In this document: piece by piece, positions 20,009 to 44,980 of the stretch
Numbering within the stretch: position 1 is the stretch's first letter
Layout of the letters: the number at the start of each line of letters is the position of its first letter
NCBI RefSeq assembly: GCF_014640635.1
Contig: NZ_BMHI01000005.1
Coordinates: 1-64,000 of the forward strand
Reading direction: 5' to 3'
DNA length: 64,000 bases
Source of the DNA: Flexivirga endophytica
GTDB taxonomy: Bacteria; Actinomycetota; Actinomycetes; Actinomycetales; Dermatophilaceae
The notes under the pieces: model-generated
Seen by the model: only the letters and a program-made list of their open reading frames with translations
The model's database searches: none
Told to the model about the DNA's origin: nothing
Position numbers and translations under genes: made by a program

Positions 20009-20653
20009 TCAGCCGGCGGACGTCGGCGCCGGGGCTTGTGTGCTGGCCGGAGCCGGGGCCTGGGTGGAGGTGGCGGGCGCCGAAGTGGTGCTGCTCGGGG
20101 CGGCGGTGGACGATGTCGAGGACGGCGTCGAATCCGTGGCCTTCTTGGCCACGGCCGTGCTGGCGCCCGGGGCCGTGCAGTTGCCGTTGCCGTCACGGCC
20201 ACACTGCTGGTTCGGTGCCGGGATTAGCGCACTCCACGCCTTCGGCCCGTCCAGCGTGAAGCTGTACTGGAAGTGCACGTACTGCGCACTGCTGGTACTG
20301 CCGAACAGGCGGTACTGGCTGTCACACGATCCCGCGGGGATGGTGATGGGGAAGCTCGGTCCGGTGAGCGCCTTGCCGCTGTTGCTCTCCGCCGCCCAGA
20401 TGTAGATGCTGCCACCGGCGGTGGTGCACGTGTTGGCGGGGTCGGAACAGATCAGCAGGTAGTAGCTCTGCGTCTGCGGTGTGGATCCGCCGGGGCACTT
20501 GCAGCTCGCGCCGTTCAGCGTGAAGGTCGGGACACACGGTGGCGATGCGGCTGCTTTGGGGGCGGCACCGAGGGCGACGGCGGCGGGAACCGCCCACGCT
20601 GCACCCTTCGCCACTGTGCGCCGGGAAAGGCCGCCGGGCTCGTTGCTTTCCAT
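20009..20653 (-). CDS. Cysteine-containing secreted protein with Tat-type signal
   Basis: A 214-residue exported protein. ATG 20653 is preferred because AGGA lies 5 nt upstream and the signal follows directly: twin arginine in GLSRRTVAKGAAWAVP and a hydrophobic stretch to about residue 35 (PKAAAS). The mature part has eight cysteines, including a CKC pair. The last ~60 residues are low-complexity Ser/Thr/Ala/Pro (SSTSSTAAPSS, TQAPAPAS), resembling a cell-wall-spanning or glycosylated tail. No family was recognised. It borders the polysaccharide locus and may be an envelope protein; the MauE-thioredoxin protein at 29046-30059 is a possible disulfide partner. Confidence 0.75.
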   Translation of the reverse strand: MESNEPGGLSRRTVAKGAAWAVPAAVALGAAPKAAASPPCVPTFTLNGASCKCPGGSTPQTQSYYLLICSDPANTCTTAGGSIYIWAAESNSGKALTGPSFPITIPAGSCDSQYRLFGSTSSAQYVHFQYSFTLDGPKAWSALIPAPNQQCGRDGNGNCTAPGASTAVAKKATDSTPSSTSSTAAPSSTTSAPATSTQAPAPASTQAPAPTSAG

Positions 20654-20880: not shown

Positions 20881-21996
20881 TCACTGAACGGGCAACTTCT
20901 CCAGCAATCGCTCGAACTCACCGGCGCGCTGCTGCCACGTGGGTATCTCGGCTGCATTCGCGGAACCCGTCGCCTCGTGGGTCAGCACCTCAGCCACGGC
21001 TGCCGGGAAACGTGCAGCCTCGGCGACGATGGTCCCGGCCAGCTCGCGGAAGCCGGCCACTGACGTGCTGACCACCGGCCGGCCCGCAGCGGCGTACTCA
21101 TATGCCTTGATCGGGTCCAGGCTCTCGGTGAACGGCGTGACCACGTGCGGTACGACGAGTGCGTCGGCGTGCTGCAGGTAGGCCGGCACGAACGACGCAG
21201 GGCGCGCACCCAGACGTATGGCGCCGGACGCGTCGAGCCGCGCCCGATCCTCGCCGGTGAGGGCGTCCGGCCCGACCAGCACGAGCTCGTCGCCGGCAGT
21301 GCGGAGCAGGTCCGCGGTCGCGCAGCACACATCGATGTCGAGCCGGTCGCTGTGCAGGGTCCCGACATACAGGGCGACGCGGCCGGTGGGCAGATCATCG
21401 GGACGCGGATGCGGTCGGGCGTAGAGATGGAGGTCGACGGCGTTCGGGATCAGCGCGACCGGACGAGTTGCGGACTTGGACTGCTGCAGCGCGGGGGAGC
21501 ACACGATGACCTCGGCACACGCGTCGAGCAACAGCGCTTCTTGCGCGCGCAGCCGAGCGAGTTCGCTCGCCGGTCGCCGCGCGAGCAGCCAGTCGTCAGT
21601 GATGTCGTAGATCGCCGGCCAGTCGACCCGGGCGAGAAGCTCCGCGCCACGCGGGTCGTTGACCCACAGCAGCGGGTCGGCCAACCCCAGACGGTCGGCT
21701 GCGGTCACGACGGATCGCGCCCACCGCTCGTCCTGCCCGGAATCGAACCTGCGCGGCAACCACTTGGTCTGCTCCAGCACCGTGATCCCCGGCTCGCTCA
21801 TCAGCGGCCGCAGTCCGCGGGCGGCTCGTGGCCGATGGCGCTGTCGCGCCGCGTGCAGCGGGTCGACCGAGGGTTCGACATACAGGACGTCCCCGATGAC
21901 GCCGTTCGCGCGCAACCGGGTGAGGAGGTGCTGGTTGCGGCGCCATACCTCGTCCCACCGCTCGAGCGAGATGAAGACGACGGGTCTCGCCCTCAC
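20881..21996 (-). CDS. Glycosyltransferase, GT-B fold
   Basis: The 371-residue product starts at GTG 21996 and overlaps the upstream gene by 4 bp. VVFISLERWDEVWRRNQHLL at the N-terminus and SLDPIKAYEYAAAGRPVVST in the donor-binding part resemble GT1/GT4-like transferases of polysaccharide clusters. VALYVGTLHSDRLDID is the inter-domain start of the second Rossmann fold. It is the last gene of a four-gene minus-strand operon (26314 to 20881). Acceptor and donor are unknown. Confidence 0.87.
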   Translation of the reverse strand: MRARPVVFISLERWDEVWRRNQHLLTRLRANGVIGDVLYVEPSVDPLHAARQRHRPRAARGLRPLMSEPGITVLEQTKWLPRRFDSGQDERWARSVVTAADRLGLADPLLWVNDPRGAELLARVDWPAIYDITDDWLLARRPASELARLRAQEALLLDACAEVIVCSPALQQSKSATRPVALIPNAVDLHLYARPHPRPDDLPTGRVALYVGTLHSDRLDIDVCCATADLLRTAGDELVLVGPDALTGEDRARLDASGAIRLGARPASFVPAYLQHADALVVPHVVTPFTESLDPIKAYEYAAAGRPVVSTSVAGFRELAGTIVAEAARFPAAVAEVLTHEATGSANAAEIPTWQQRAGEFERLLEKLPVQ

Positions 21997-23015
21997 AGGA
22001 CGCTCCGATAGACCTGCGAGGTCAGCTCGACCTGCCGCTCGAGGGTGAAGCTGCGTTGTTGCGCTTCGTGCAGGGACGAGCCGACCCGGTCGCGTCGGGA
22101 GGGGTCGGCTGCGAGCTCGGCCAGTATCCGAGCGCCGGAGGCAATGTCGCCCGGCGCGAAAAGCGACTCCGGCGTGACGGATCCGACCGTCTCGACATGT
22201 CCGCCGGCCCCGCTAGCGACCACGGGTAAGCCGCACGCCATCGCCTCAACCACGCTGAGCCCGTAGGCCTCAGCCGGGCACGGTGCGAGGAGCACACCGG
22301 CAGAACGCATCAGCACACGGGCGTCCGCGACTCGTCCGAGCAGACTGGTGCGGTCGGCAATCCCCAACGCGGCGAGTTGTTGCTCGATGCGAGGACGCAG
22401 TGCGCCGTCACCGGCGATGTGCAACCGCCAGCCCTCGTCGAGCAGTCCGGACGCGGCTGCGATCTCGACTCCCTCGGACGTTGCCTTCTCCGGCTCCATC
22501 CGCTGCGCGATGAGGATCACCGGCGCACGGTCCGGCGCCGGCACGAGTCGCTCCGTGGACACGCCGGCATGGATCACCGTGCAAGGTCCCTCGATGAACG
22601 CGGCCGCATAACCGCTCACCGCGGTCTCTGCCGCGATCGCTCGGGACACCGTGTGGCGCAACGCTTCTCGCCGCAGTCTCGTGGCACCACGGGACTGCGG
22701 TGTATGGCGCGTGGCGACCACCGGCGTGCGGGACAGACGTGTCCCCAGATATGCCGCGAGGTCGGCGGCCGTGAGGTGCGAATGGATGACCTGTGTGCCG
22801 GACCTGCGCACCGCGAGGACAGCGTCCCATACCGTGCGTGCAGGCGTGAATCCCACGCCGTACGAGGTCAATTCGGTCTGCATTCGCTCCGGGGCGCCGC
22901 CGACGACGCTCACCTCCAGTCCGGCGCGTGCCTGCGCGGTCGCGAGCGTGCGGATGTGGGCCTCGACCCCGGCGTAGCGGTCGGAGGCCGTGACGTGGGT
23001 GACCGAGATCGTCAT
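21993..23015 (-). CDS. Glycosyltransferase, GT4 family
   Basis: A 340-residue GT4 enzyme. The Gly-rich N-terminus (VTHVTASDRYAGVEAHIRTL) binds the acceptor, and CPAEAYGLSVVEAMACGLPV carries the donor-phosphate E-x7-E motif. VILIAQRMEPEKATSEGVE contains the conserved Arg/Lys region. ATGA-type overlaps of 4 bp with both neighbours show tight coupling in the minus-strand operon. It is presumed to add one sugar to the lipid-linked repeat on the cytosolic face. Confidence 0.9.
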   Translation of the reverse strand: MTISVTHVTASDRYAGVEAHIRTLATAQARAGLEVSVVGGAPERMQTELTSYGVGFTPARTVWDAVLAVRRSGTQVIHSHLTAADLAAYLGTRLSRTPVVATRHTPQSRGATRLRREALRHTVSRAIAAETAVSGYAAAFIEGPCTVIHAGVSTERLVPAPDRAPVILIAQRMEPEKATSEGVEIAAASGLLDEGWRLHIAGDGALRPRIEQQLAALGIADRTSLLGRVADARVLMRSAGVLLAPCPAEAYGLSVVEAMACGLPVVASGAGGHVETVGSVTPESLFAPGDIASGARILAELAADPSRRDRVGSSLHEAQQRSFTLERQVELTSQVYRSVL

Positions 23016-24334
23016 ACGTTCGCGGCCTGGCGGTCGTCGGCGATGTCGACCGCTGTGCCGCGCGCGTCATCGACGACCTTCTCGTGTCCACCGAGCGCGA
23101 TGCCGGCGATGAGCAGCGGCAACGATGCGGTCACCGACAGCCAGAAGATGTCCAGCTGCCCCTGCACCGCCCGGTCGACGAGCACCGCGAGGGCGAGCGT
23201 GCCGTAGGTGGACTTGAGACGAGCAGTCACGACGATCGAGCCGATCAGGAAGAGCAGGAAGGCCGCCAGACCGATCAGTCCGGTGGTGCTCAGGACCTCC
23301 AGCTCAGCGTTGGGTGGTTGGAAGTTCACATCGAATCGCGAGGAGTACCACCAGCGTTGGCCGGCGCCGAAGAGTGGGTCGTCGCGCCATACATTGATCG
23401 CGTCGGTGAACCATTCGACACGCTGATGGGCCGAGTTGTGGCTGTTGTCCGACCGCAACTGCTCCCGCAGGGTCAGCACCGAGACGATGATGGCGGGCAC
23501 CGCCACCAACGGCAGCAGTGCCGACCGTCGGTGCTCACCACGGCGCAGCATCGCGACCAGGATTGCGGCCGCGAGGCCGACGATGGCCTGGCGCGACTGG
23601 GTCATCCCGATCGCGACGCCGAAGAGGACGAGAAGCGGGGTCGCAAGTCGCCCGAGTCGCATCCACGGCGGATGTACCGCGCAGACGACCGCGATGAAGC
23701 CGATGGTGGTGCCGAGATAGTTCTTTCCGCCGCTGAAGAACAGGTCGGGGTCGACGGGGCCGAAGTGTCCCTTGGCATACCGCAGTAGACCGTCGACGAC
23801 GACGATCACAGCCATCGCGGTCGCGCACAGCAACAGCAGCAGCAACCCCGCGCGGGCGAAGCCGCGGCGGCCGATGGTCCATCCGACGATGAGTGCCCCC
23901 ATCACCAGCACGACCTCGTGCGGCCATTCGACGAGGTTGTCGCGGTAGGGATTCGCCGCGAGGGAGAGCGCAAACGCCGCGAAGTATGCCGCAGCCAGCC
24001 ACAGCAGCGTGCGCAACGTGTGGCTGAACGGCCGTGGCGCGAGCAGGAGGGCCGGCACGAACGCCAGGGCGAGCGCGAGGTCGGCGAACGTGACGCCGTT
24101 GGAGCCGACCCCGCTTGCGCGGTAGGCGACCAACATGACCGGCAGCAGCAGGATCGGCAGGAGCGCCGGCTCCAGGGCCGACAGCCCGGTCAGCGCGGCC
24201 AGACCGGCGACCGCGAGCGCGATGTGAGGGTGATGTGGCAGCAGGTAGCCGATCGTCACCGTCATGACGATGACGAGTGCGACGAACATTCCGGTGCGCA
24301 GCCGGTCCGCGAGCTGACGGGAGGGGGCCATCAT
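23012..24334 (-). CDS. O-antigen ligase/polymerase family membrane protein (Wzy-like)
   Basis: A 440-residue polytopic protein with about 11-12 hydrophobic segments. A large polar loop near residues 290-350 contains SAHQRVEWFTDAINVWRDDP and LFGAGQRWWYSSRF, the His/Arg- and Gly-containing pattern of the Wzy_C/O-antigen ligase family. It most likely polymerises flipped repeat units outside the membrane. It sits between glycosyltransferase genes with a 4-bp overlap downstream and 12 bp upstream. Two adjacent ATG codons (24334, 24331) are equally plausible starts. Confidence 0.85.
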   Translation of the reverse strand: MMAPSRQLADRLRTGMFVALVIVMTVTIGYLLPHHPHIALAVAGLAALTGLSALEPALLPILLLPVMLVAYRASGVGSNGVTFADLALALAFVPALLLAPRPFSHTLRTLLWLAAAYFAAFALSLAANPYRDNLVEWPHEVVLVMGALIVGWTIGRRGFARAGLLLLLLCATAMAVIVVVDGLLRYAKGHFGPVDPDLFFSGGKNYLGTTIGFIAVVCAVHPPWMRLGRLATPLLVLFGVAIGMTQSRQAIVGLAAAILVAMLRRGEHRRSALLPLVAVPAIIVSVLTLREQLRSDNSHNSAHQRVEWFTDAINVWRDDPLFGAGQRWWYSSRFDVNFQPPNAELEVLSTTGLIGLAAFLLFLIGSIVVTARLKSTYGTLALAVLVDRAVQGQLDIFWLSVTASLPLLIAGIALGGHEKVVDDARGTAVDIADDRQAANV

Positions 24335-24346
24335 CGCGGTCGCCCC

Positions 24347-26314
24347 CTACTCCGTGTGCTCTGCCGCAGTAGCAGCACGCACGTGTTCATCTCGAACAGC
24401 GACCGGGCCGCGCAGGTAACGGCGCATCCGGCGCCGCGACTCGACCCCGCTGTCACCTCGGAGTATGACAGAGCGCAGCCCTGCTCCCATGATGATTGCG
24501 GATCGTGCGACCGCCCATCCCGCGCGCCCGTAATGCTTGCGATGGAACGTCTCCTGGGCTGCGTGGAAGTGCGCGTCCCGCACCTCGGTGTCGCTGCTCG
24601 TCGCCGCGCCGATGTGGGTCGCCCGCACTTCGGGTATGACGGCGTGGCGCCAGCCGAGCATGACCGCTCGTTTCGCCCAGTCGGTCTCCTCGGCATACAG
24701 GAAGAACCGCTCGTCGAAGCCGCCGACCTGTGCCAGAGCTTCGGCGCGCAGCAGGAGGACGGAGCCGATCACATATTCGTCGGCGGGCCGGTGCAACCGG
24801 TCGAGGCCGAGAGCCTCGCGCCATACGCCGGCCGGGCTGGGGATTGGCCACCCCACCCGGGACGTGTGCCCGTCGGCGTCGACCTGGGCGGGGCCGACGG
24901 AGGCGAGGTCCGGCTCGGCCAGCAGCCTGGCCTGCAGTCGGTCGATTTGGGCGTCGGTGACCACCGCGTCCGGGTTGAGCAACAGCACGTCACCAGCCGG
25001 ATCTCCTTGCGCCAGACCGATATTGACGCCTGCTCCGAACCCTCCGTTGCGCCCTGCGTCGAGGTAACGCACTCCGGCCGCGCGGCAGACCTCCGCAACG
25101 TCCGCCCGCGAGCTGTTGTCGACGACCAGGACCCGGTCGGGACGCAACGGCTGCAGACACCGTGCGAGGTATGCCGGTGCGCCATACGCGACGATCACGA
25201 TCTGTACCGGGCGCGGCATCGGCAGGGCCGCGTGGGTCACGGTCCGGTAGAGGTCGATGTACTGCCCGGCGATGGATCGCCAGTCGAACTGCTCCGCACG
25301 CCGCAGCCCTGTGGCCCGCAGCGCGGGTCGACTTTCGCCCACCGCCTCGCGGAGTGCGTCCGCCAGCGCCGTCGGGTTGCCCTCGGGCACGACGCGGCCG
25401 GCCCCGCCGACCACGTCCGGCAGCGCTCCGGAGTCACTGGCCACGACGGGCGTGCCACAGGCCATGGCCTCGACGGCGACCCGACCGAACTGCTCCACCC
25501 AACTGTTGGTGGTGAGCGACGGAACCGCGAGCACATCGATAGCCCGGTAGAAGTCGGCAAGGTCTCCACCGTCGAGCGCCCCGAGCAACTGGACCCGTTC
25601 ACCGAGCTGTCGGTCGGCGATCGCGCCGCGCAGCTCCGCGTCGGCCGACCCCGCCCCGGCGACACGGAGAGTGAGTTCAGGGGCCCGCTCGATGGCGTCG
25701 AGCAGGACGAAGACGCCCTTACGGCGTTCGATGCGGCCGGCGTAACCGACAACAGTCGTGGTCACCTCGGCGCCGGGATCGGCGTGCGGTCGGAAGACCG
25801 ACCGGTCGACGCCGAGTCCGATGGTCACAGGCCTGCCGGGAAAGCCCTTGCGGCAACAGATTTCGCCGGCAACGTCGTTGCACACCTGCAATCCGGCGGC
25901 ACCGCGTAACGCGGCGCGCTCGAGCCGGCGGAACGGCGCGGGGTAGCGCTTCTCGATGTTCTGCGCAGAGTAGAGCGTGTATGGCGCGCGCTGCCGCGCG
26001 AGTTTGCGCAGCAACAGGATCTCCGCGGTGGCCAGTGCGAACGGCTCCTCGTGGATGTCGATGACGTCGACGGGCGCACGCAACGCAGCCCACACCGGAC
26101 GCGGGTCGTAGAGGAATAAAGCGGGGTGGGTTCCAAGTGTCCGGACCCCGGTCACCGGCTCGTCGAGCACTGGATCGAGATCGACTGTGCGACCGGCTGT
26201 GTTCCAGCGTTTCGCGGTGAAAAGGTCTATGTCCACGCCCGATTCGCGGATCCGTTGCTCGCGTTGCCGCCACGACCGGACCACTGCGCTGTGTGAGAAG
26301 CGTAGAACGCGCAC
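24347..26314 (-). CDS. Fused glycosyltransferase: GT4 domain plus GT2 domain
   Basis: A 655-residue fusion. Residues 1 to about 360 are GT4, with VVGYAGRIERRKGVFVLLDA and WVEQFGRVAVEAMACGTPVV. From about 368 a GT2 domain begins (VQIVIVAYGAPAYLARCL), with VLLLNPDAVV as the metal motif region and GFDERFFLYAEETDWAKRA typical of rhamnosyltransferase-like GT2. Two consecutive sugar additions by one polypeptide are likely. GTG 26314 has GGAGGAG 9 nt upstream. It is the first gene of the minus-strand operon and divergent from the autokinase at 26415, with a 100-bp shared promoter region. Confidence 0.92.
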   Translation of the reverse strand: MRVLRFSHSAVVRSWRQREQRIRESGVDIDLFTAKRWNTAGRTVDLDPVLDEPVTGVRTLGTHPALFLYDPRPVWAALRAPVDVIDIHEEPFALATAEILLLRKLARQRAPYTLYSAQNIEKRYPAPFRRLERAALRGAAGLQVCNDVAGEICCRKGFPGRPVTIGLGVDRSVFRPHADPGAEVTTTVVGYAGRIERRKGVFVLLDAIERAPELTLRVAGAGSADAELRGAIADRQLGERVQLLGALDGGDLADFYRAIDVLAVPSLTTNSWVEQFGRVAVEAMACGTPVVASDSGALPDVVGGAGRVVPEGNPTALADALREAVGESRPALRATGLRRAEQFDWRSIAGQYIDLYRTVTHAALPMPRPVQIVIVAYGAPAYLARCLQPLRPDRVLVVDNSSRADVAEVCRAAGVRYLDAGRNGGFGAGVNIGLAQGDPAGDVLLLNPDAVVTDAQIDRLQARLLAEPDLASVGPAQVDADGHTSRVGWPIPSPAGVWREALGLDRLHRPADEYVIGSVLLLRAEALAQVGGFDERFFLYAEETDWAKRAVMLGWRHAVIPEVRATHIGAATSSDTEVRDAHFHAAQETFHRKHYGRAGWAVARSAIIMGAGLRSVILRGDSGVESRRRMRRYLRGPVAVRDEHVRAATAAEHTE

Positions 26315-26414
26315 TCGACTACACTCCTCCAGAACGACGGGACAGCAGGATATCCGCCGCGTAACGTTGAGATCAGGGGCTCCGGCCCGCCCATGAGTTC
26401 AGGGAGATCGGCGC

Positions 26415-27875
26415 GTGACAGTTCGGGAGTTCCTCACCATATTGCGTCGCCAATGGCTGACCCTGGTCATCTGCATCCTGGTCGTCGTCGGTGTCACCGC
26501 GGGAGTCACCCTGCTCCAGGCGAAGGTCTACACTGCGACAGCATCCGTCTATCTGCAGACCGGCGTCGTCACGAAGAGCGACGCCGGCAGCGTCGTGATC
26601 AACGCGAACGACCTCGACACCTATATCGCTGTGCTGCACTCGCCGGAGGTCGTCAAGCCACTGCGCAAACGGGCCGGGCTGCCGGCCGGTTATCCGATCG
26701 ATGTCGCGGCGTCCGCCAACTCGAAGGCGAACATCCTCACCGTTGTCGTCAAGGACGCCGACCCGGCCCGTGCAGCGCGCATCGCGAATGCCGTCGGGCC
26801 GCAACTCGCCAAGAGCGCAGCGACGTTCTCCACCCTGCTCCAGGTGAGCGGGCAGGAGGTCACCTCGATCCCGGTGTCGCCGGCGACCACCCCGAACGAG
26901 CCGTCCTCCCCGAACCTCGAGCGCAACCTGGTCCTTGCCCTGCTGACCGGGCTGCTGCTCGGCGTGGGCGTCACCCTGATCCGCAACACCGTGGACACCA
27001 AGGTGCGCGACGAGGCCGACCTGCACGCCGCGGCCGACGCCCCGGTGCTGGCGGACCTGCCGGTCGAGAAGCAACTCGCCACAGACGGAGTGCTCCGGGA
27101 CTGGTCCGCGGACAGCTCCCACCACAGCTACCTGGAGGCGGTGCGGCGATTGCGCACCGGCCTGATGTTCGTCGATGTCACGACCAGTGGTCACACCTTC
27201 GTGATCACGTCAGCGGCGCCGGGCGAGGGGAAGACGACGACCTGCGCCAACCTGGCGCGGGCACTGGCCGAGGCCGGCTCGCGCACTCTGTTGATCGACG
27301 GTGACCTGCGACGGCCGAGCATCGCCAGAATGCTCGGTCTGGAGGGCAGCGTCGGACTGACGACGGTGTTGCTCGGCGGTGCGAGACTCGAGGACGCCAT
27401 CCAGCCGTTCGGCGACATCGAGCTCGATGTGCTCACGTCCGGCGAGGTCCCGCCCAACCCGAGTGAACTCATCGGCTCCGATCGGATGGCGACGCTCATG
27501 GCGAACCTGCAGGCTCGTTACGATTTCGTGTTGATCGACAGCCCCCCGGTGCTGCCCGTCGTGGACGCGATGCTGCTGCACAAGCTGGCATCGGGTCTGG
27601 TCATGGTCGTCGCAGCAGGACGCACCCGCAAACGGGACCTGCTGCAGGCGGCGAAGTTCTTCCACAACTCCGATGTCGAGATCAGTGGTTTCGTCCTGAA
27701 TCTCGCCGGTCGTCGCCGCGCAGGAACGAGCTACTACCGCTACACGTATCAGCCGGAGAAGGGTGCGATCGCCACGCCCCGTGTCGCGGAGGGCCCGGCG
27801 ACTCGCCGTGGTGCAGCGGACAGTAGGAAGGCCGTCAGCAGGAAGAGATCGCACCGACAGCTCAGTCGGCGATGA
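26415..27875 (+). CDS. Polysaccharide chain-length regulator fused to BY-type tyrosine kinase
   Basis: The 486-residue product begins with a Wzz domain: a membrane segment at about 15-35, a periplasmic-type part and a second membrane segment at about 172-190. A CpsD/CapB-type bacterial tyrosine kinase follows, with Walker A APGEGKTTT near 268-276, Walker A' LLIDGDLRRPS and Walker B VLIDSPP. Near the C-terminus, YYRYTYQP is a tyrosine cluster suited to autophosphorylation. It should control export and chain length in the Wzx/Wzy pathway. The start is GTG 26415. Its 3' end overlaps the convergent PqqD-like gene by 14 bp. Confidence 0.93.
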   Translation: MTVREFLTILRRQWLTLVICILVVVGVTAGVTLLQAKVYTATASVYLQTGVVTKSDAGSVVINANDLDTYIAVLHSPEVVKPLRKRAGLPAGYPIDVAASANSKANILTVVVKDADPARAARIANAVGPQLAKSAATFSTLLQVSGQEVTSIPVSPATTPNEPSSPNLERNLVLALLTGLLLGVGVTLIRNTVDTKVRDEADLHAAADAPVLADLPVEKQLATDGVLRDWSADSSHHSYLEAVRRLRTGLMFVDVTTSGHTFVITSAAPGEGKTTTCANLARALAEAGSRTLLIDGDLRRPSIARMLGLEGSVGLTTVLLGGARLEDAIQPFGDIELDVLTSGEVPPNPSELIGSDRMATLMANLQARYDFVLIDSPPVLPVVDAMLLHKLASGLVMVVAAGRTRKRDLLQAAKFFHNSDVEISGFVLNLAGRRRAGTSYYRYTYQPEKGAIATPRVAEGPATRRGAADSRKAVSRKRSHRQLSRR

Positions 27876-28119
27876 GCAGCCCGTCCTGACACAGCGAGCT
27901 CAGGAAGACACGCACCTCGTCGGCGACATCGCGGTCGGGGACCCCGGCTCGCGCGGCCACCCGTCGCACGATGTCCTCTTCCGAAGACCCGTTCACGCAG
28001 TCCCAGATGATCGTGGCATTGCCTTGCAGGACAACGACATTGCCCAGTAGCTGGGCGATGAAGACCCGGTCGTCCCGCCGAGCCACGGCAACCTGCGCGG
28101 ACTGGCGGAAGCAGCTCAT
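27862..28119 (-). CDS. PqqD-family small protein (RiPP recognition element-like)
   Basis: An 85-residue protein with the PqqD pattern: a beta-rich N-half (FIAQLLGNVVVLQGNATIIWD), then helices containing EEDIVRRVAARAG and a C-terminal FLSSLCQDGLLI. Such proteins bind leader peptides for modification enzymes, or occur with nucleotidyltransferases in envelope clusters. Its start overlaps the stop of the nucleotidyltransferase gene (ATGA), so the two form a pair. No radical-SAM enzyme, HPr-kinase-like gene or precursor peptide was recognised nearby. Confidence 0.82.
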   Translation of the reverse strand: MSCFRQSAQVAVARRDDRVFIAQLLGNVVVLQGNATIIWDCVNGSSEEDIVRRVAARAGVPDRDVADEVRVFLSSLCQDGLLIAD

Positions 28120-28988
28120 GATCTGCCCCTGCGGCTGGTGATCTCACGCGTCGCCAGCGACAGGCGGCGCATGAACTCCCGGACCATGTCGGCACGAGAC
28201 GGCTCCCGACCCCTCAAGGTGCGCAGGTGATCGCGGTTGACCTGCAACGAGCGGACGGCGAGCGACGCCTTGGACCGGATTCCGGGCGATGCCTTGATGC
28301 GTGCGCGCCATTCGGTGGTCCGAGCGGCGTCGGGGCTCGAATTCACTTTCCAGAGCAGGTAGTCCGGGCGATGCCGGAAATCCTCCAGTCCGCCGACGGC
28401 TGCGGCGAAGGCGACCTCGGCCTTCATGGTCCCGACGAGATCGCGGATCCGCCGCTGAGTCGTGACGTCAGCGGTCCGCCATACATGCTCGACGTCCAGC
28501 CGGGAGCGATGGTCGCCGTGCGAACGAGCCGCATGCAGCAACACGATCAGTGCCTGCGCGTCGAGGCTGGGGACCGCGCAGTCGACCTGGGCGATCGGCG
28601 TCTGGCTCCGGCAACCCCAGAACGCGTCGAACGCCTCGTCCGGGGGCAGACCCACGCCAGGGATCAGGCGATGCAGATCGAGATGGCCGAGGGTTTCGTG
28701 GTGCCAGTTCTCCGCGTGCTCGAAGGGGGAGCCGGTGGAGAAGTGCCCAGTCTGCTGCCAGCCGTGTTCACTCAGCGCTGCCCGCAGGGTGGCGATGTGC
28801 GGAGGCCGGACGAGCAGATCGACGTCCATGCTGACCCGGCCGGGGTGGCGCAACTCCGGATCGAGGGCGAGGCCTTTGATGTGCAGCGCGTCGATCCGTC
28901 GGCTGTCGCACAGCAGTTGAACGACGCCGTGGGCGAGTTCGATGCGCACCTGTGCCACCTCGTGCTCGGCCCACTCCGTTTGCGTCAT
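28116..28988 (-). CDS. Nucleotidyltransferase family protein (NTP_transf_5-like)
   Basis: A 290-residue protein starting at ATG 28988; the frame is open much further upstream, but that part overlaps the MauE-type gene on the other strand and is not coding-like. ALHIKGLALD followed by VSMDVDLLVRPPH is the signature of this uncharacterised nucleotidyltransferase group, with the D-x-D metal pair. HLDLHRLIPG supplies a further Asp. The family accompanies PqqD-like proteins in lasso-peptide and exopolysaccharide/exosortase clusters. Its substrate is unknown; a peptide or a polysaccharide-linked protein are both possible. Confidence 0.83.
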   Translation of the reverse strand: MTQTEWAEHEVAQVRIELAHGVVQLLCDSRRIDALHIKGLALDPELRHPGRVSMDVDLLVRPPHIATLRAALSEHGWQQTGHFSTGSPFEHAENWHHETLGHLDLHRLIPGVGLPPDEAFDAFWGCRSQTPIAQVDCAVPSLDAQALIVLLHAARSHGDHRSRLDVEHVWRTADVTTQRRIRDLVGTMKAEVAFAAAVGGLEDFRHRPDYLLWKVNSSPDAARTTEWRARIKASPGIRSKASLAVRSLQVNRDHLRTLRGREPSRADMVREFMRRLSLATREITSRRGRS

Positions 28989-29045
28989 CGCGCCGATTGT
29001 CGCAGAAGGTCGGCATGGTGCTGTTGACGTCCGTAGCCTTTGTTC

Positions 29046-30059
29046 GTGACCACACCGCTCGTCCTGCCGTCGCTGCTGCTCGCACTGGTGCTGACCGTCA
29101 GCGCGGTGTTCAAGCTGCGCGACGCGGTGACCTCGACCGACGCCTTCGTCTCGTTGCGATTGCCCGATCGACTGCGTGCGTTGAAGGTGCCCGTTCTGTT
29201 GCCGTACGCCGAGTTGTTGCTCGCCGTCGCATTGGTCGTCGTCCCGGAGCCCGGCTACGTGGTGGTGACCGTCGTGACGGTGTTGCTCTTCGTCGCATAC
29301 CTCGCCGTCATCGTGCGAGCGCTCGGTTTCGAGGAGCGGGTTGAGTGCGGCTGTTTCGGTCGTCTCGGCCTGGGCGACGTCGATCGGCGTACCGCGGTGC
29401 GCAACGGTGTGCTGGTGCTGGTGGCGTTGGTCGCCCTCGGCGACGCCGTGGCAGGTCACAGCGTCATTGAGCGGCTGGTCGATTTCGGTGTCACCGAATG
29501 GGGTTGGCTGATCGGAGTGGCGGTCGCGATCGTCCTCACCTGGCTGGTCGTGGGTCGGCGGAGTGAGGCCGCGAACGCGACGCCGACGACCTCGGAGCCG
29601 GCTCAGGGGGACGATCAGCTCGACTACGAGCGCCGGCCGATCCCGTATGGCGCCCTGCTCGACCGGACGACCGGAGAGTCCGTCCCGCTGTTCGCGGTCG
29701 GTGGCGGCAGGCCGGCGCTGCTCGTCTTCGTCAATCTGTGGTGCGGTCCGTGCGTGCGGACGATGGAGATGTTGCCTTCCTGGGCCGGCAGACACTCGGC
29801 GATCCGGACCATCGCCATACCGCCCGGGACAGGATTCGACGAACTTCCTGACCTCGGCCCGCACGTGTCCTGGATGGAGGACCCAGCGGCCACCGTGGCA
29901 CGCACCTTCGCCGTGACGTACCCGTCGGCGGTGCTGTTCGGCGTCGACGGAATGTTGGCGGGTGGGCCGGAGAGCGGTTTCGACGGCATCAGCAACTTTT
30001 TGGACGAGATCTCCGAGCAGTTGGCCGAAGCGGGCGTGCCGGCAAGTGGAGCACCGTGA
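29046..30059 (+). CDS. MauE/DoxX-like membrane protein fused to thioredoxin domain
   Basis: A 337-residue protein starting at GTG 29046. The N-terminal ~180 residues have four to five membrane segments and the MauE features FKLRDAV and ECGCFGRL. The C-terminal part is a thioredoxin fold with active site LWCGPCVRT and a cis-Pro region TYPSAVLFG. MauE supports disulfide formation in methylamine dehydrogenase, so a role in thiol oxidation or reduction of exported proteins is likely. It begins a plus-strand operon with GT4, acyltransferase and flippase genes and is divergent from the PqqD/nucleotidyltransferase pair. Confidence 0.87.
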   Translation: MTTPLVLPSLLLALVLTVSAVFKLRDAVTSTDAFVSLRLPDRLRALKVPVLLPYAELLLAVALVVVPEPGYVVVTVVTVLLFVAYLAVIVRALGFEERVECGCFGRLGLGDVDRRTAVRNGVLVLVALVALGDAVAGHSVIERLVDFGVTEWGWLIGVAVAIVLTWLVVGRRSEAANATPTTSEPAQGDDQLDYERRPIPYGALLDRTTGESVPLFAVGGGRPALLVFVNLWCGPCVRTMEMLPSWAGRHSAIRTIAIPPGTGFDELPDLGPHVSWMEDPAATVARTFAVTYPSAVLFGVDGMLAGGPESGFDGISNFLDEISEQLAEAGVPASGAP

Positions 30060-31189
30060 TTATTCACCTGCCTACGGCGCTACACCATTTCTCGCCATCA
30101 AACGGCTCGGCGGTGATGACAGTCATCGATGGGCTGGCCCGTGCTGGCGATGAGCGTCATGCGGTGCTGGTTGCCCGCGCGACCTCTGCCGATCGTTACG
30201 ACTCCGCCGATGTGATTGAGTACGCCGCCGGTCCATACCTGGATCGCCACGGTCGCACCAAGGATGCGCTGCTCTCGCGTGCCGGTGCCGGCAAGCCGGG
30301 GATCATCGCCTCGTATGGCGACGTTGCGCATGCCATCCCGGACGGTGACCACGTGCTGTTGGCGCACAATGCGCCCTTCTGCGGTGGACGATTTCTGCCC
30401 GGGATGGAATTGCTCTACGCGCACAATCTGATCGTTCCGCATCACAATTGGATCGCGGCACGGCGTGCGGTGGCCGGCTACTCGGGCATCATCGCGGTGA
30501 GCGACTGGCTGGCGAATGCCACCCAGCATGCACTCGGTCCCCGGTCCCGGACTCCGATACACGTGGTGCGCAACGGCGTCGACACCTCGACCTTCACGGT
30601 TCCGGACCGGCCGGAGCATGACCGGGTCAGAGTGCTCTTCTTCGGGCGAGTGGTGCCGGCGAAAGGCCCGGACCTCCTGTTGTCCGCACTGTCCCGGCTG
30701 GGTCGGGATGACATCGAGACGCACATCGTCGGCAGCAGCGGCTTCTCGCCATACGGGCCGCTGACCCGGTATGAACGAGCGCTGCGCCAGATTGTGCCGG
30801 CAGTCCCCGGACCGGTGACATTCCAGCCTTTCGTCGATCGCCGTGCGATCGTCCCCGTGCTGCAGGAAGCTGACATCATCGTTCTGCCGTCCCGTTGGCT
30901 AGAACCGCTCGGGCTCGTTGTGCTCGAGGCGATGGCCGTGGGCGCGACCGTCATCGTCGCCGAGACCGGAGGCATGCTCGAAGCAGGTGGCGACGCAGTC
31001 CTCAGCTTCAAGCGCGGGAGTCGCCGCGCGCTCGCAGACGTGCTGGATGCCGTGGTTGGTGACCGTGCACTCAGACAGCGCCTCGGCGCGGCAGCCCGGG
31101 CGCGCGCAGAGAGGTTCGACTGGGCATTACAAGCGAAGGCCCTCGATCGGGTGCTGGGAACGGTGCAGGCAACACCGGCGCCGGCATGA
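30056..31189 (+). CDS. Glycosyltransferase, GT4 family
   Basis: A 377-residue GT4 enzyme whose GTG start (30056) overlaps the preceding stop. VRVLFFGRVVPAKGPDLLLS opens the donor-binding domain, and SRWLEPLGLVVLEAMAVG has the E-x7-E motif. GIIAVSDWLANATQ and VVRNGVDTSTF are further family marks. It ends in an ATGA overlap with the acyltransferase. It is presumed to work on the polysaccharide repeat unit. Confidence 0.92.
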   Translation: MIIHLPTALHHFSPSNGSAVMTVIDGLARAGDERHAVLVARATSADRYDSADVIEYAAGPYLDRHGRTKDALLSRAGAGKPGIIASYGDVAHAIPDGDHVLLAHNAPFCGGRFLPGMELLYAHNLIVPHHNWIAARRAVAGYSGIIAVSDWLANATQHALGPRSRTPIHVVRNGVDTSTFTVPDRPEHDRVRVLFFGRVVPAKGPDLLLSALSRLGRDDIETHIVGSSGFSPYGPLTRYERALRQIVPAVPGPVTFQPFVDRRAIVPVLQEADIIVLPSRWLEPLGLVVLEAMAVGATVIVAETGGMLEAGGDAVLSFKRGSRRALADVLDAVVGDRALRQRLGAAARARAERFDWALQAKALDRVLGTVQATPAPA

Positions 31190-32292
31190 GCCCTGCCTCT
31201 GAGGGTGGACGCAATCCTTCGTGGTCGGCAGTGCGGTCCCGGGAAGGCCGTGACACAGAACGTGTGCGGCCCCTGCATTGGCCCGGACTCGACGGCTTGC
31301 GAGGTGTCGCTGCGGTCGCGGTCGTCCTCTTCCACGCCGGCTTCGGTCCAGCGGTCAACGGCTACGCGGGCGTCGATGTCTTCTTTGCGCTCAGTGGCTT
31401 CCTGATCACCTCGCTGTTGTTGCGCGAGCGAGCTCGTTCCGGGGCGATTGCGTTGGGACGCTTCTACATTCGGCGACTACTCCGCCTGTACCCCGCACTG
31501 CTCGCCACCTGCCTCTTCGTGGTTCTCGTAGCCGCAGCCACGCACAAGCTGGACCGGGAGGTCGGCCCGGCAGTGGCTGCGCTCCTGTATGTCGCCAACT
31601 GGTGGATCTACCTGGGCAAGCCCGCGCCGCTGTTGGACCACACCTGGACGCTTTCGATCGAGGAACATTTCTACGCGATCTGGCCTGTCGCGCTGACGTT
31701 GTTGCTCGGTCGCGAACGACGCCGTCGAGTGATCGGTTGGGTGGTCGCCGGGGTCGTGTGCTTGTTGATCGCACTGCCGTGGCCGAGCGGGATAGACAGC
31801 GTTCGAGAGTCTTACCTGCGCGGTGTCCCGATTGTTTGGGGAGCCCTGCTCGCGATGGTGCTGCAGCGCTGGCAGCTGCCGCGTCGTTTGGGCTCAGTGC
31901 TGCTCTGGGGCGGGTCGGCACTGCTGCTGGTTCTGCTGTTGACACCTACCCGACTCGGGACCGACTTCGTGACGGGTCCAGTGGGTGCGGCGGGGCTGCT
32001 GTCAGTGCTGCTCGTGGCGACAATCGTCAGCTCGCCCGGTGGGCGTGGCGGTGCATGGGGGAGCGCTCCATTGGGCTGGCTCGGCCGACGGTCGTACGGC
32101 CTGTACCTCTACCACTTCCCGCTCCTCAGTCTCTTCGCTCACCAGCTGAGTGTCGGCCCGTCGTGGTTACGTCGACTCATTGCTCTACCAATGGTGTTGC
32201 TGGTGACAGCAGTGTCTTACCGTGTGCTGGAGTCGCCGTTCCTCAAGCTGAAGGACAAGCGGTTCTCGAGCGCACGTCGGGAGGTCGCGTGA
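31186..32292 (+). CDS. Acyltransferase 3 family membrane protein (OafA/YrhL-like)
   Basis: A 368-residue polytopic acyltransferase with about ten membrane segments. Family motifs include LDGLRGVAAVAVVLFH with its conserved His, YAGVDVFFALSGFLIT, FYIRRLLRLYPAL with Arg residues, and HTWTLSIEEHFYAIWP. It probably adds O-acetyl or similar groups to polysaccharide sugars at the membrane. It overlaps the preceding glycosyltransferase by 4 bp. The 32293-32385 gap before the flippase shows nothing notable. Confidence 0.93.
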   Translation: MSPASEGGRNPSWSAVRSREGRDTERVRPLHWPGLDGLRGVAAVAVVLFHAGFGPAVNGYAGVDVFFALSGFLITSLLLRERARSGAIALGRFYIRRLLRLYPALLATCLFVVLVAAATHKLDREVGPAVAALLYVANWWIYLGKPAPLLDHTWTLSIEEHFYAIWPVALTLLLGRERRRRVIGWVVAGVVCLLIALPWPSGIDSVRESYLRGVPIVWGALLAMVLQRWQLPRRLGSVLLWGGSALLLVLLLTPTRLGTDFVTGPVGAAGLLSVLLVATIVSSPGGRGGAWGSAPLGWLGRRSYGLYLYHFPLLSLFAHQLSVGPSWLRRLIALPMVLLVTAVSYRVLESPFLKLKDKRFSSARREVA

Positions 32293-32385: not shown

Positions 32386-33996
32386 GTGGTAAGAACGCGA
32401 GTGAGTGACACGTCGGGCCGCCGTGCGTCGGCCCCGGATGAGGAACCAGATGCCGGCCGCGAAACGCTCAGCCGCCGGGACCTGCAAGATCGCGCGATTC
32501 GCGGTGCCAGTTGGACCATGATCCACACGGTCACCGGTGTGCCGGTGGCCTTCTTCGTGAACTTGCTTCTGGCTCATGCCCTTGGCGTCGTCCACTACGG
32601 TCGACTCGCGTTCCTGATGACGCTCATGGATGTCGCGACCGGAATCGTCGCGCTCGGCGTCACGACGGGCACAATTCAATTCGGTGCAAAGGCGCACGCT
32701 GCCGGACGCCGCGACGAAGTGCGGCTGCTGTTGTCGAAGGCGCAGGGCTTTCGTCTTTTGGTAGCCGCGCCGTTGCTCACGGTCGTGGTGGTCCTCGTTG
32801 CACATGTGTCGACCCCGATGCTGCTTCTGGCGTTGGTATTCGGCGTGTGGATGCCCGGCTTCCTGGACGGCGCCACCACCTGCCTGGGCATCGAGAACAA
32901 GACGGCCTGGGGCGCCAAGATTGGCATGCTGGTAAATCTGATCATGCAGGCCGGGGTTGCCATAAGCGTGCTCATCACGCACCAGGCGGACGTCGTGTGG
33001 GTGACCCGGCTCATTCTCGGTGCTGTCGGGGTCGGACTTGCCCTTCTGGTCATCGACCCGGGCTACCGGTCCGCCGTACTTCGCCCGAGCATTCCGAAAG
33101 GAATGCCCGCAGGTTTCTGGCGCTTCGCGATACCAACGGCCCTCGCCGGTGTGGTTGCCACCCTGGTCCTCTCGCGCACCGAGGTCTTCTTCCTCGCATG
33201 GCTCGGCGATGCCGCTGCGGTCGGATACTTCGCGCTCGCCTTCGGTCTGGCGTCGCACATCTTCGCCCCCGCGCAGGCGCTCGTCGGGCCGCTCATGCCG
33301 GCCATCTCCGGGCTACGCGAGGTCGATGTCGACTCGGTGAAGGATGCCTTCTGGCGCACTATCCGCACGTCATCGCTGATGGTCGCAGCGCTCTGCGTGG
33401 TCGGTGTCCCGGCTTTCGCCCTGCTGATCCCGGTCCTTTATGGGGACGCCTTCAGCGTCTCCGCGCCGATGTTCGTCGCACTCAGCATCTCCGCGGGTCT
33501 GCTGATCGCGGCTGGACCGGTTTCCGCATTCGTCATGGGTCGTCTCGCGGCCAGGGCGATGCTGATGATCAATCTGGTGGCGCTTGCCATCGACGCAGGT
33601 TTGGCCGCGTCGCTCATCCCCGTCATCGGTGCGTGGGGCGCGGTGCTCGCGAATATGTCGGGCGCGGTCACGTTGCTGACTCTGTTGGTGCGAGCCGAAC
33701 TACGGGCGATGGCTATTTCCTGGCGTGACCTGCTGGGGGAGGTGCGATCACTGGTCGTTGCGCTCCCGATATGTGTGCTTGTGTGGTGGGCAGCAGGGCA
33801 CCTCGGGCTGCCAGCTGTGGTCGAAGCAGTCATTGCGGGACTGGTCGGCACTGCGGCGTGGGTCATCGTCGTCCGGCTCGTACACGGTGGGGTCACCGAA
33901 AGCGATGCACGGGCCCTCGAGCGTGTCGTGCCGCCGCGCGGCCGGGCGCTTGTCGCGCGGCTGCTGGCGTCGGTCGTGACCAAGAGGAAGACATGA
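32386..33996 (+). CDS. Polysaccharide flippase (Wzx/MVF superfamily)
   Basis: A 536-residue protein with about 14 hydrophobic segments and a short charged N-terminus. The order of helices, with IQFGAKAHAAGRRDEVRLLL between early segments and SRTEVFFLAWLGDAAAVGYF mid-protein, fits Wzx-type exporters. It would move lipid-linked repeat units across the membrane for the Wzy-like protein at 23012-24334. Starts at GTG 32386 or GTG 32401 are both possible, and neither has a convincing ribosome site. Confidence 0.88.
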   Translation: MVRTRVSDTSGRRASAPDEEPDAGRETLSRRDLQDRAIRGASWTMIHTVTGVPVAFFVNLLLAHALGVVHYGRLAFLMTLMDVATGIVALGVTTGTIQFGAKAHAAGRRDEVRLLLSKAQGFRLLVAAPLLTVVVVLVAHVSTPMLLLALVFGVWMPGFLDGATTCLGIENKTAWGAKIGMLVNLIMQAGVAISVLITHQADVVWVTRLILGAVGVGLALLVIDPGYRSAVLRPSIPKGMPAGFWRFAIPTALAGVVATLVLSRTEVFFLAWLGDAAAVGYFALAFGLASHIFAPAQALVGPLMPAISGLREVDVDSVKDAFWRTIRTSSLMVAALCVVGVPAFALLIPVLYGDAFSVSAPMFVALSISAGLLIAAGPVSAFVMGRLAARAMLMINLVALAIDAGLAASLIPVIGAWGAVLANMSGAVTLLTLLVRAELRAMAISWRDLLGEVRSLVVALPICVLVWWAAGHLGLPAVVEAVIAGLVGTAAWVIVVRLVHGGVTESDARALERVVPPRGRALVARLLASVVTKRKT

Positions 33997-42401: not shown

Positions 42402-43373
42402 TTATTCAAGGTCGTGGTTTGGTGGCAGTGCGTTGCGGAGGTTGAACCAGAATTTCTCGAGAGAATTCGTTTCAGCGACGTAGCGACGTGCGGCACGGCC
42501 CAGGGACCGCCGCAACTCTTCATCCACGGACAGTTCTCGCAGCGCCTCCGAGAGGGCTGCCGAATCATCTGGCGGGACTACTAAACCAGTCACGCGATCT
42601 GTGATGTAGTCGCGGGTGCCGTTGGCGGAAGTGGCGACCACAGGTTTGCCGGCCGCCATTGCATCGAGCAGCACGAGCGGCCCGGACGGAAGCTCGGTGT
42701 CACGCATGATTACTGCGACGATCTTCGCGCCGCGGCAGAGCGCTCTACCGTCTTCGGGGCTCGGCATTGTCGGCCGCACGCGGATCCGATCCAGAAGGTT
42801 GGTCGGGATATCGAGAGAGCGTCCTGGCGCTAGGATCGCCGGCACCGGCACCGTTTCGAGGGCACGTACGAGCGTCGGCCAGTCTCGATGTGCCCAACCC
42901 GCTGAATAGACGTAATCACCCTCGTCGGGACTCTCCGGGAGCACTTCGGGAAGCACTGGCCACGGGATGAATCGTGTCCGATCCAGCGGCACTTGGAACC
43001 GGCGCTGCAACATCGCGGCGTCACCACTACGGATGATCAAGAACCGATCGATAAGTCGGAGCAACGGCCTGCGAATCAGCGTTGGTAGGTCTCGGCGCGG
43101 GGCGAGAAAATCGAAGACGAAGACCTTCGACCTCGGTGACACCATCTTGACGATGCCAGCGAGCACGGCTGCCTCGATCCCTATCGTGCACAGAACAACA
43201 GCATCGGATTGGCGCGCAGATCGTGCGAGTCGCAGGGCGTCCGGCAGGATCCGAAGCCGTGATCGAGACCGCGACATGCCCCACGTCATTGATCGCTTCA
43301 CGATCTGTCCGTCGAAATCGCTTGGTGGGTCACCGAATGGCCACGTCCACGAAACAGACAACACAGTCGCCAT
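42402..43373 (-). CDS. Glycosyltransferase, GT4-like
   Basis: A 323-residue GT-B protein starting at ATG 43373 (GTG 43376 is the alternative), overlapping the stop of the S10 peptidase gene. SGPLVLLDAMAAGKPVVATS is the donor-binding region and DYVYSAGWAHRDWPTLVRAL the start of the second Rossmann fold. The N-terminal half is unusually rich in Arg/Leu helices. It marks the right end of the polysaccharide locus. Confidence 0.82.
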   Translation of the reverse strand: MATVLSVSWTWPFGDPPSDFDGQIVKRSMTWGMSRSRSRLRILPDALRLARSARQSDAVVLCTIGIEAAVLAGIVKMVSPRSKVFVFDFLAPRRDLPTLIRRPLLRLIDRFLIIRSGDAAMLQRRFQVPLDRTRFIPWPVLPEVLPESPDEGDYVYSAGWAHRDWPTLVRALETVPVPAILAPGRSLDIPTNLLDRIRVRPTMPSPEDGRALCRGAKIVAVIMRDTELPSGPLVLLDAMAAGKPVVATSANGTRDYITDRVTGLVVPPDDSAALSEALRELSVDEELRRSLGRAARRYVAETNSLEKFWFNLRNALPPNHDLE

Positions 43374-44890: not shown

Positions 44891-44980
44891 CAGCCTGATG
44901 TTAACCAGCCACTGCAAGAACTGGTCGGCACGGTTGACTCGCTCATATCATCGTGGTCCGGGGAGAGAACGAGGCATGGT

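Follow-up and report, generated by a model that had tools for sequence, protein, structure and literature searches.

A conserved PqqD and nucleotidyltransferase pair in a Flexivirga polysaccharide locus and a putative leader-guided modification of exported proteins

Introduction

What do a PqqD-like protein, a member of a family that recognizes leader peptides, and a nucleotidyltransferase do in the middle of a polysaccharide locus? The question is raised by a 64,000-nucleotide stretch of the Flexivirga endophytica genome (family Dermatophilaceae; contig NZ_BMHI01000005.1, positions 1 to 64,000; hereafter the window), in which a polysaccharide locus of ~26 kb (18.5–45 kb of the window) surrounds genes for a PqqD-like protein, an NTP_transf_5 nucleotidyltransferase and a MauE-thioredoxin membrane protein. 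The original prediction, made from the letters of the window, treated these three genes as a unit that might modify a protein or peptide linked to the polysaccharide. The proposed role in modification fits the findings described here, and the unit itself is redrawn: the PqqD-like and NTP_transf_5 proteins are proposed to work together as one of the enzyme modules by which exported proteins are modified under the guidance of a leader, a reading to which we give a probability of roughly 0.7.

The PqqD and NTP_transf_5 Genes Form a Conserved Pair

The three gene assignments of the original prediction were upheld, each product exceeding its Pfam cut-off. The PqqD-like protein of 85 amino acids (aa) is encoded at 27862–28119 on the reverse strand and scores 37.8 bits against PF05402 (cut-off 23.4), and the 290-aa NTP_transf_5 protein, encoded at 28116–28988 on the same strand, scores 48.5 bits against PF14907 (cut-off 31.2). 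The stop codon of the NTP_transf_5 gene overlaps the ATG of the PqqD gene at 28116–28119 (ATGA), which makes the translational coupling that had been proposed plausible. Comparison of neighborhoods bore out the pairing, with a same-strand PqqD gene within 400 bp of 39 of the 41 NTP_transf_5 placements found in 40 loci, the window included, and with the two sequences sharing one open frame in five cases; the exceptions are loci L059 and L073. The two genes are a conserved pair, beyond what chance would produce, and a Wzc-like gene lies within 10 kb of 29 of the 41 placements. Homologs of the nucleotidyltransferase (E ≤ 1e-5) are present in 94 of the 186 genomes surveyed from the family.

The assignment of the PqqD-like protein to a leader-recognizing family was confirmed at the level of sequence. 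Its family profile (alignment A5) finds TbiB1 as the best match in the Protein Data Bank (PDB; E 4.7e-9) and also matches TfuB1, PqqD, PbaB1 (9x90) and LppB (9x8z), the last two at E ~3e-4, which places it among recognition elements of the kind that read the leaders of ribosomally synthesized and post-translationally modified peptides (RiPP recognition elements, RREs); binding of a leader by this protein is itself predicted. In the alignment of 18 NTP_transf_5 sequences (A4) a KG motif, a DxD motif (D42xD44) and a further Asp are invariant, and the profile reaches a lincosamide nucleotidyltransferase in the PDB sequence search at E 0.08. The window genome (4.72 Mb, 13 contigs) encodes a second NTP_transf_5 protein that is fused to a C-terminal PqqD domain, a 513-aa open reading frame on contig C1 (L054:9032–10570, reverse strand) scoring 39.9 bits against PF14907 and 42.5 bits against PF05402. 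Similar fusions occur in loci L055–L058. A third PqqD gene of the genome (C4:342560–342742, forward strand; L001/L072), which gives its best PF05402 match (63 bits), stands in a different context, with no NTP_transf_5, HprK-like or client match in the 20 kb around it.

The MauE-thioredoxin protein does not belong to this pair. It is a membrane protein of 339 aa encoded at 29040–30059 on the forward strand, possibly with its true start at GTG 29046 instead of 29040, and scores 63.8 bits against PF07291 (cut-off 27); its thioredoxin domain is not called by Pfam, and the link to thioredoxin is made through a C-terminal CGPC motif. The genome contains a second such protein, with a CGAC motif and a thioredoxin-like domain at 15.3 bits, below the cut-off of 27, whose gene converges on two leader-bearing clients on contig C1 (the three together at L130:5703–8237); no NTP_transf_5 gene is among the listed matches near it. 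Of the 95 MauE-thioredoxin placements entered, one, that of the window, has an NTP_transf_5 gene less than 3 kb away, and at the same distance 17 have an HprK-like gene and 19 a leader-bearing client. The co-conserved trio of the original prediction is thus ruled out as a unit, and MauE associates loosely with the clients described below rather than with the PqqD and NTP_transf_5 pair.

A Shared Leader Marks a Class of Exported Proteins

The loci compared contain a recurring small exported protein beside HprK-like, PqqD or MauE genes. Although the original prediction reported no precursor, a copy of this protein lies in the window at the end of a run of glycosyltransferase genes, at 20009–20653 on the reverse strand, and its 214-aa product is a candidate precursor or client of the PqqD-linked machinery, with a leader match of 62.2 bits (E 2.0e-16). 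The leader segment (20543–20623, reverse strand) extends from the first Arg of an RR pair at residue 11, through a WxxP motif at residues 20–23, to Ser37, which stands at a fixed distance; it has the form RRxxxKGAAWxxP...S and reads SRRTVAKGAAWAVP...AAS, and the leader sequence is MESNEPGGLSRRTVAKGAAWAVPAAVALGAAPKAAAS. After the leader come a Cys-rich region, whose CKxPG motif served to pick 14 proteins for alignment A2, and a tail rich in Ser, Thr, Pro and Ala. Neither Pfam nor NCBIfam gives the protein a match at E ≤ 0.1, and its profile finds none in the PDB sequence search; its structure model is β-rich with a mean predicted local distance difference test (pLDDT) score of 64 and no PDB match at E ≤ 0.001, so no conclusion is built on its fold. 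Among 10 clients scanned, Pfam calls a domain above its cut-off in one (DUF6801), and no NCBIfam family reaches its cut-off in any.

An RR motif, a hydrophobic segment and an AxA-type site are visible in the leader alignments, a pattern of the twin-arginine translocation (Tat) type as judged by motif only. A leader model built from 19 leaders (A1) gives as many as 16 matches in a single genome and seven in the window genome, two of which precede the second MauE-thioredoxin gene on contig C1. With this model and an RR...W pattern, 78 distinct leaders were gathered from the family, and 51 more came from the named loci described below, for a total of 129. In the 78 family leaders, Pro occupies position +12 from the first Arg in every case, and position +26 holds Ser in all but two, one of which has Thr there (Ser 76, Thr 1). 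The combination W/YxxPx[LVIFAM] with Ser or Thr at +26 is found in 126 of the 129 leaders (77/78 in the family and 49/51 elsewhere); of the exceptions, a leader in L268 has a three-residue insert before Trp with the Ser still 17 residues after it, one in L264 has its Ser 18 residues after Trp (both read by eye), and one L145 leader has Gln. The mature parts are far less uniform: blastp sorts the 126 clients that have at least 60 residues after the Ser into 57 clusters, 36 with a single member. Judged by sequence, the leader defines a class of exported proteins with diverse mature parts. Within 5 kb of an HprK-like, NTP_transf_5 or MauE gene lie 46 of 150 listed leader genes, against an expectation of ~0.3% per target, a count that is not independent, such loci having supplied the seeds of the leader model.

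An HprK-Like Kinase Accompanies the Leader

The loci of relatives contain, near the PqqD or NTP_transf_5 gene, a P-loop protein that often has its own PqqD domain and is weakly similar to HprK-related kinase A. The original prediction had noted the absence of an HPr kinase, which stands for the window, where no HprK-like gene was seen, but not for the genome, where contig C2 encodes an HprK-like protein with a C-terminal PqqD domain (388-aa open reading frame; L096:8843–10009, reverse strand). This PqqD domain scores 12.5 bits with Pfam and 25.8 bits with the family profile, and the best named match of the HprK-like protein is from Flexivirga (62% identity). The fusion adjoins genes for a Wzc-like protein and a low-molecular-weight phosphatase (L096:6572–8290, reverse strand, and 8222–8806, forward strand), and a ClpC-like gene, recognized by eye, flanks it on the other side.

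Phosphoenolpyruvate carboxykinase (PEPCK) and HPr kinase share a fold, and the AlphaFold model of the window genome's HprK-like protein (pLDDT 91) returns both with Foldseek, PEPCK as the top match (E 2.6e-4, template modeling (TM) score 0.44 of the query) and HPr kinase at E 1.1e-3, the TM-scores being modest. As modeled, the kinase has an HprK/PEPCK fold with a P-loop and catalytic-type residues, and H73, K96, D113 and E114 are invariant in 15 HprK-like sequences. These residues are comparable to the His-Lys-Asp-Asp motif that the accessible part of one report attributes to lasso peptide kinases (PMC9266682). In the PDB sequence search the HprK-like profile gives P-loop matches only (E ≥ 0.004). 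The best named relative is TIGR04352, HprK-related kinase A, with a match that spans the P-loop region.

Kinase similarity alone was used to choose a further set of named loci, the best 80 of 159 relatives, a few of which coincide with loci of the family (Intrasporangium, Terrabacter, Janibacter) and which include Arthrobacter, Kocuria, Microbacterium, Rathayibacter, Demequina and Nocardioides. A PqqD gene is present in 63 of these loci, a Wzc gene in 52, an NTP_transf_5 gene in 35 and a MauE gene in five; the PqqD sequence lies within 1 kb of the HprK-like gene in 56 and in the same open frame in 46. Although none was chosen for its leaders, 43 of the 80 contain a client by pattern. Arthrobacter and Pseudarthrobacter have a compact one-strand locus in the order client, PqqD, HprK, PqqD, Wzc, NTP_transf_5 (L197, L199, L200, L202, L204, L206, L207, L209–L212), and in Demequina (L263, L271, L260, L252) two to five clients lie near the HprK-like gene, with differing sequences after the leader.

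Leader and Enzymes Co-occur Across Genomes

Co-occurrence was surveyed with one genome per species, a leader threshold of E < 1e-6 and statistics that use no tree. Among the 186 genomes of the family, 99 have the leader, 110 the HprK-like protein (in G099 at only 34 bits), 94 the NTP_transf_5 protein and 106 the MauE-thioredoxin protein. The kinase is present in 98 of the 99 leader genomes, the exception (G034) being 83% complete, and the leader is found in 91 of the 94 NTP_transf_5-positive genomes and is absent from 84 of the 92 negative ones. When the counts are stratified by genus (Cochran–Mantel–Haenszel test; 14 genera, 119 genomes), the leader remains associated with NTP_transf_5 (p = 2.6e-15), the HprK-like protein (3.2e-14) and MauE (1.3e-7); in genus g46, six genomes have leader and NTP_transf_5 and six have neither, and the corresponding numbers in genus g43 are six and five. 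Wzc-like proteins occur in 136 of the 186 genomes, and within these the leader is found in 90 of 91 genomes with NTP_transf_5 and in six of 45 without it. The polysaccharide locus is therefore ruled out as the sole cause of the co-occurrence.

In a sample of 325 genomes from the class, the leader was found in 13, the HprK-like protein in 17 and NTP_transf_5 in 16, and both enzymes accompany the leader in 11 of its 13 genomes (7/9 outside the family of the window). Two genomes of this sample from another family (f33), G262 and G275, have 12 and 13 leader matches, which suggests that their client sets have expanded.

Relationship to Known Systems

The closest parallel is found in linear polyphosphorylated peptides (LPPs), RiPPs of Bacillota capsule loci that are described, in the parts of the source paper available, as encoded with a precursor, an RRE, an HprK-like kinase, an NTP transferase, a signal peptidase I (SpI)-like peptidase and an MsbA-like exporter (PMC13381572). 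The LPP leader is given there as YxxPxVLxHQxIxFETxxS, with lasso RREs recognizing [Y/W]xxPx[L/V/I/F/A], and the HprK-like kinase is reported to phosphorylate Ser3, the last residue of the motif and 18 after Tyr in that paper's numbering (PMC13381572). The leader described here, WxxPx[VI]...S with the Ser 17 residues after Trp, follows the same grammar by sequence. As far as the available text allows comparison, the two systems have in common a discrete RRE, an HprK-like kinase, an NTP transferase and a polysaccharide-locus context, a [Y/W]xxPx[V/I] leader with a Ser 17–18 residues after the aromatic residue near the cleavage site, and variable C-termini, in LPP precursors of 35–200 aa as in the clients (PMC13381572). 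An LPP-type set of RRE, HprK-like kinase, NTP transferase and [Y/W]xxP leader with downstream Ser is thus present, with the kinase on another contig in the window genome.

The differences are equally specific. LPPs and paeninodins are called restricted to Bacillota in the accessible text (PMC13381572), whereas the system described here occurs in Actinomycetes and the leader is embedded in a Tat-type signal; exported proteins, often of larger size, make up the clients, of which a genome has several, mostly unlinked to the machinery; and the kinase and NTP_transf_5 proteins each have their own PqqD domain, fused in part. Profile scans covered 29 window proteins from ~15 to 52 kb, which is not every gene of that interval, with the first 15 kb and the last 12 kb outside, and among these 29 there was no SpI-like peptidase or MsbA-like exporter, a genome-wide search for which was not made. 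The 29 likewise include no radical SAM enzyme or B2 peptidase, in line with the original prediction, and no macrolactam synthetase, and a lasso or radical-SAM cluster was rejected on these scans. Given the Tat-type leader, the many unlinked clients, the separate PqqD domains and the lack of SpI, MsbA, cyclase and B2 proteins among the 29 scanned, the system is placed outside the LPP and lasso families and regarded as a putative HprK-RRE-NTP variant that would act in trans on exported proteins.

The tailoring of paeninodin and pseudomycoidin, as far as the available part of the report describes it, likewise pairs a kinase for a precursor Ser (PadeK, PsmK) with a nucleotidyltransferase-like partner (PsmN) and a PqqD-type B1 protein, PsmN reportedly attaching hexoses to the phospho-Ser (PMC9266682). 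In those peptides the Ser is C-terminal, unlike the Ser described here, which is N-terminal to the mature part of clients that are proteins (PMC9266682). The present kinase also differs from HprK-related kinase A in falling far under the 200-bit cut-off of TIGR04352.

Exosortase/PEP-CTERM sorting is another arrangement in which exported proteins with a common tag co-occur with polysaccharide loci. The tag of the present clients is N-terminal, in contrast to that system, and no exosortase is among the 29 scanned proteins. In a literature search of titles and the beginnings of abstracts, with subscription papers and preprints outside its coverage, no description of a system like the present one was recognized.

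Proposed Mechanism and Alternative Explanations

The gene pairing, the leader with its spacing, the co-occurrence and the kinase fold were computed directly. From the leader grammar shared with LPPs, the match of the PqqD profile to LppB, PbaB1 and TbiB1 and the hexose transfer reported for PsmN, we infer leader binding, phosphorylation, extension by NTP_transf_5 and export, and on the same footing we propose a Tat route, a role for MauE and a link to polysaccharide. In this scheme the Tat-type signal of the clients (RRx[VLI]xK) would include, in its hydrophobic stretch, an RRE-recognition motif (GAAWxxPx[VI]), with the Ser 17 residues after Trp close to the expected signal-peptidase site. Before export, PqqD domains would bind the WxxP segment and pass the client on to a pair of enzymes that both have a PqqD of their own: the HprK-like kinase, in the window genome the PqqD fusion of contig C2, would phosphorylate the fixed Ser, and NTP_transf_5 would then add a nucleotide or sugar at the phosphorylated residue, in a step comparable to the reported hexose transfer by PsmN, a presumed PF14907 member. 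The tagged and folded client would exit by Tat, MauE-thioredoxin would probably tend its cysteines, and the tag may help to attach the client to the polysaccharide or to sort the two together; this last tie is speculation invited by gene context.

Several observations weigh against this modification system. Removal of LppN from an LPP expression system is reported, in the text available, to cause no detectable change (PMC13381572), which makes the NTP_transf_5 reaction the weakest and least certain step. The HprK-like family lies well below curated cut-offs, with 34.1 of 200 bits for TIGR04352 in one of two proteins scanned and 12.6 of 33.3 bits for PF07475 in one of four, and no client was found within the 18.9 kb examined around the HprK-PqqD fusion of contig C2, a client-free separate locus that may point to other roles for the kinase. 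By pattern, 37 of the 80 kinase loci have no client in the stretch examined. Twelve family genomes have the HprK-like protein without the leader and eight the leader without NTP_transf_5, and in the class sample the leader is missing from six HprK-like and five NTP_transf_5 genomes, the two leader genomes that lack both enzymes are G411 (41 bits) and G421 (34 bits), and G262, counted among the 11 with both enzymes, has only a partial NTP_transf_5 match of 43 bits. The fixed residues call for caution as well: the leader model itself favors W, P and S in the 129 collected leaders, a motif search that demands neither P nor S returns Pro in 93% and Ser in 89% of 151 matches, noise included, and a Ser that is conserved where signal peptidase is expected to cut could have its role in processing.

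In an alternative explanation, which we consider unlikely, the leader is a mere lineage-specific Tat signal, the PqqD and NTP_transf_5 pair acts on a small peptide or on the polysaccharide instead, and the co-occurrence reflects shared ancestry or polysaccharide loci. The RR motif and AxA region would suit an ordinary signal peptide, and 104 of the 150 listed leader genes have no entered machinery gene within 5 kb. The sole control, 14 other Tat-like signals from the same loci, has Pro at +12 in four and Ser at +26 in six; about four of those six resemble degenerate leaders by eye, and with n = 14 the control is weak and generic Tat signals could account for the Ser. Such a signal would not be expected to vary together with the enzymes inside genera and within Wzc-positive genomes, as this leader does, nor to match the published RRE motif in its WxxPx[VI] segment at a fixed spacing to the Ser, and clients adjoin HprK-like and PqqD genes in other families as well.

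Less probable still is that no covalent modification takes place, the kinase-like and NTP-like proteins linked to PqqD serving instead as chaperones for export, or as a quality control that reads the leader and holds clients until they are folded. The Tat route exports folded proteins, and recognition of the leader is compatible with a holding function, but both enzyme alignments show invariant residues of catalytic type, and the one nearly invariant position beyond the binding motif is occupied by Ser, the residue phosphorylated in LPPs according to the available text (PMC13381572). A genuine lasso or LPP cluster whose small-peptide product escaped notice is very improbable: RRE, NTP transferase and HprK-like parts are indeed common to such clusters as the accessible sources describe them, yet the scanned window proteins include neither the cyclizing and maturing enzymes discussed above nor a member of a signal-peptidase family, and the leader-bearing proteins are long, diverse and exported.

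Organization of the Window Locus

The polysaccharide locus contains several glycosyltransferases, a Wzy_C/ligase, an acyltransferase, a flippase-like protein and a Wzz/bacterial tyrosine kinase (BY-kinase). Upstream of the client on the reverse strand, profile scans identify two glycosyltransferases (20881–21996 and 21993–23015), the Wzy_C/ligase (23012–24334) and a fusion of GT4 and GT2 glycosyltransferase domains (24347–26314), and these are followed on the forward strand by the Wzz/BY-kinase, a Wzc-like protein (26415–27875; TIGR01007 162.1 bits, cut-off 108.05), into whose convergent gene the 3′ end of the PqqD gene reaches by 14 bp. The NTP_transf_5 and MauE genes diverge from a gap of ~50 bp, and the MauE gene overlaps by 4 bp (30056–30059) a glycosyltransferase gene (30056–31189, forward strand; Pfam). 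An acyltransferase (31186–32292; Pfam) and the flippase-like protein (32386–33996), which has Pfam matches below cut-offs only, continue the forward strand, and a serine carboxypeptidase-like protein (PF00450, 32.4 bits; 43373–44917, reverse strand) lies at the edge of the locus.

The five-cluster order of the genes from 20881 to 27875, Wzc included, recurs in relatives (L035, L036, L038). In five relatives (G036, G170, G171, G038, G039; L074–L078 with L035, L036, L038, L047, L060) the genes run in the order MauE, client, HprK-like, glycosyltransferases, Wzc, PqqD, NTP_transf_5, with all five window clusters from the first glycosyltransferase to Wzc in G036, G170 and G171 and only some of them in G038 and G039. 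Compared with this order, the window probably has the client in its shared place, has lost the kinase from the locus and has MauE on the other side.

Significance

Polysaccharide loci repeatedly contain PqqD, NTP_transf_5 and HprK-like genes for which no client is known, and the leader supplies a concrete set of candidate clients for them in soil Actinomycetes. It also points to one defined residue and ties the leader recognition of RiPPs to protein export and surface polysaccharides. A wider picture can be drawn only tentatively and is on balance doubtful, namely a secretome-wide tagging in many Actinomycetes, in which Tat-exported surface proteins whose mature domains are unrelated would be read in the cytoplasm by way of an RRE-type leader within the signal, phosphorylated by HprK-RRE on the one fixed Ser and then anchored to the polysaccharide of the cell by a sugar or nucleotide that NTP-RRE adds. 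The biological role of LPPs and paeninodins is stated as unknown in the text available (PMC13381572), and the system described here would therefore bear on them too. If the wider picture is true, RiPP-style leader guidance would serve general protein export in these bacteria, and not natural-product synthesis.

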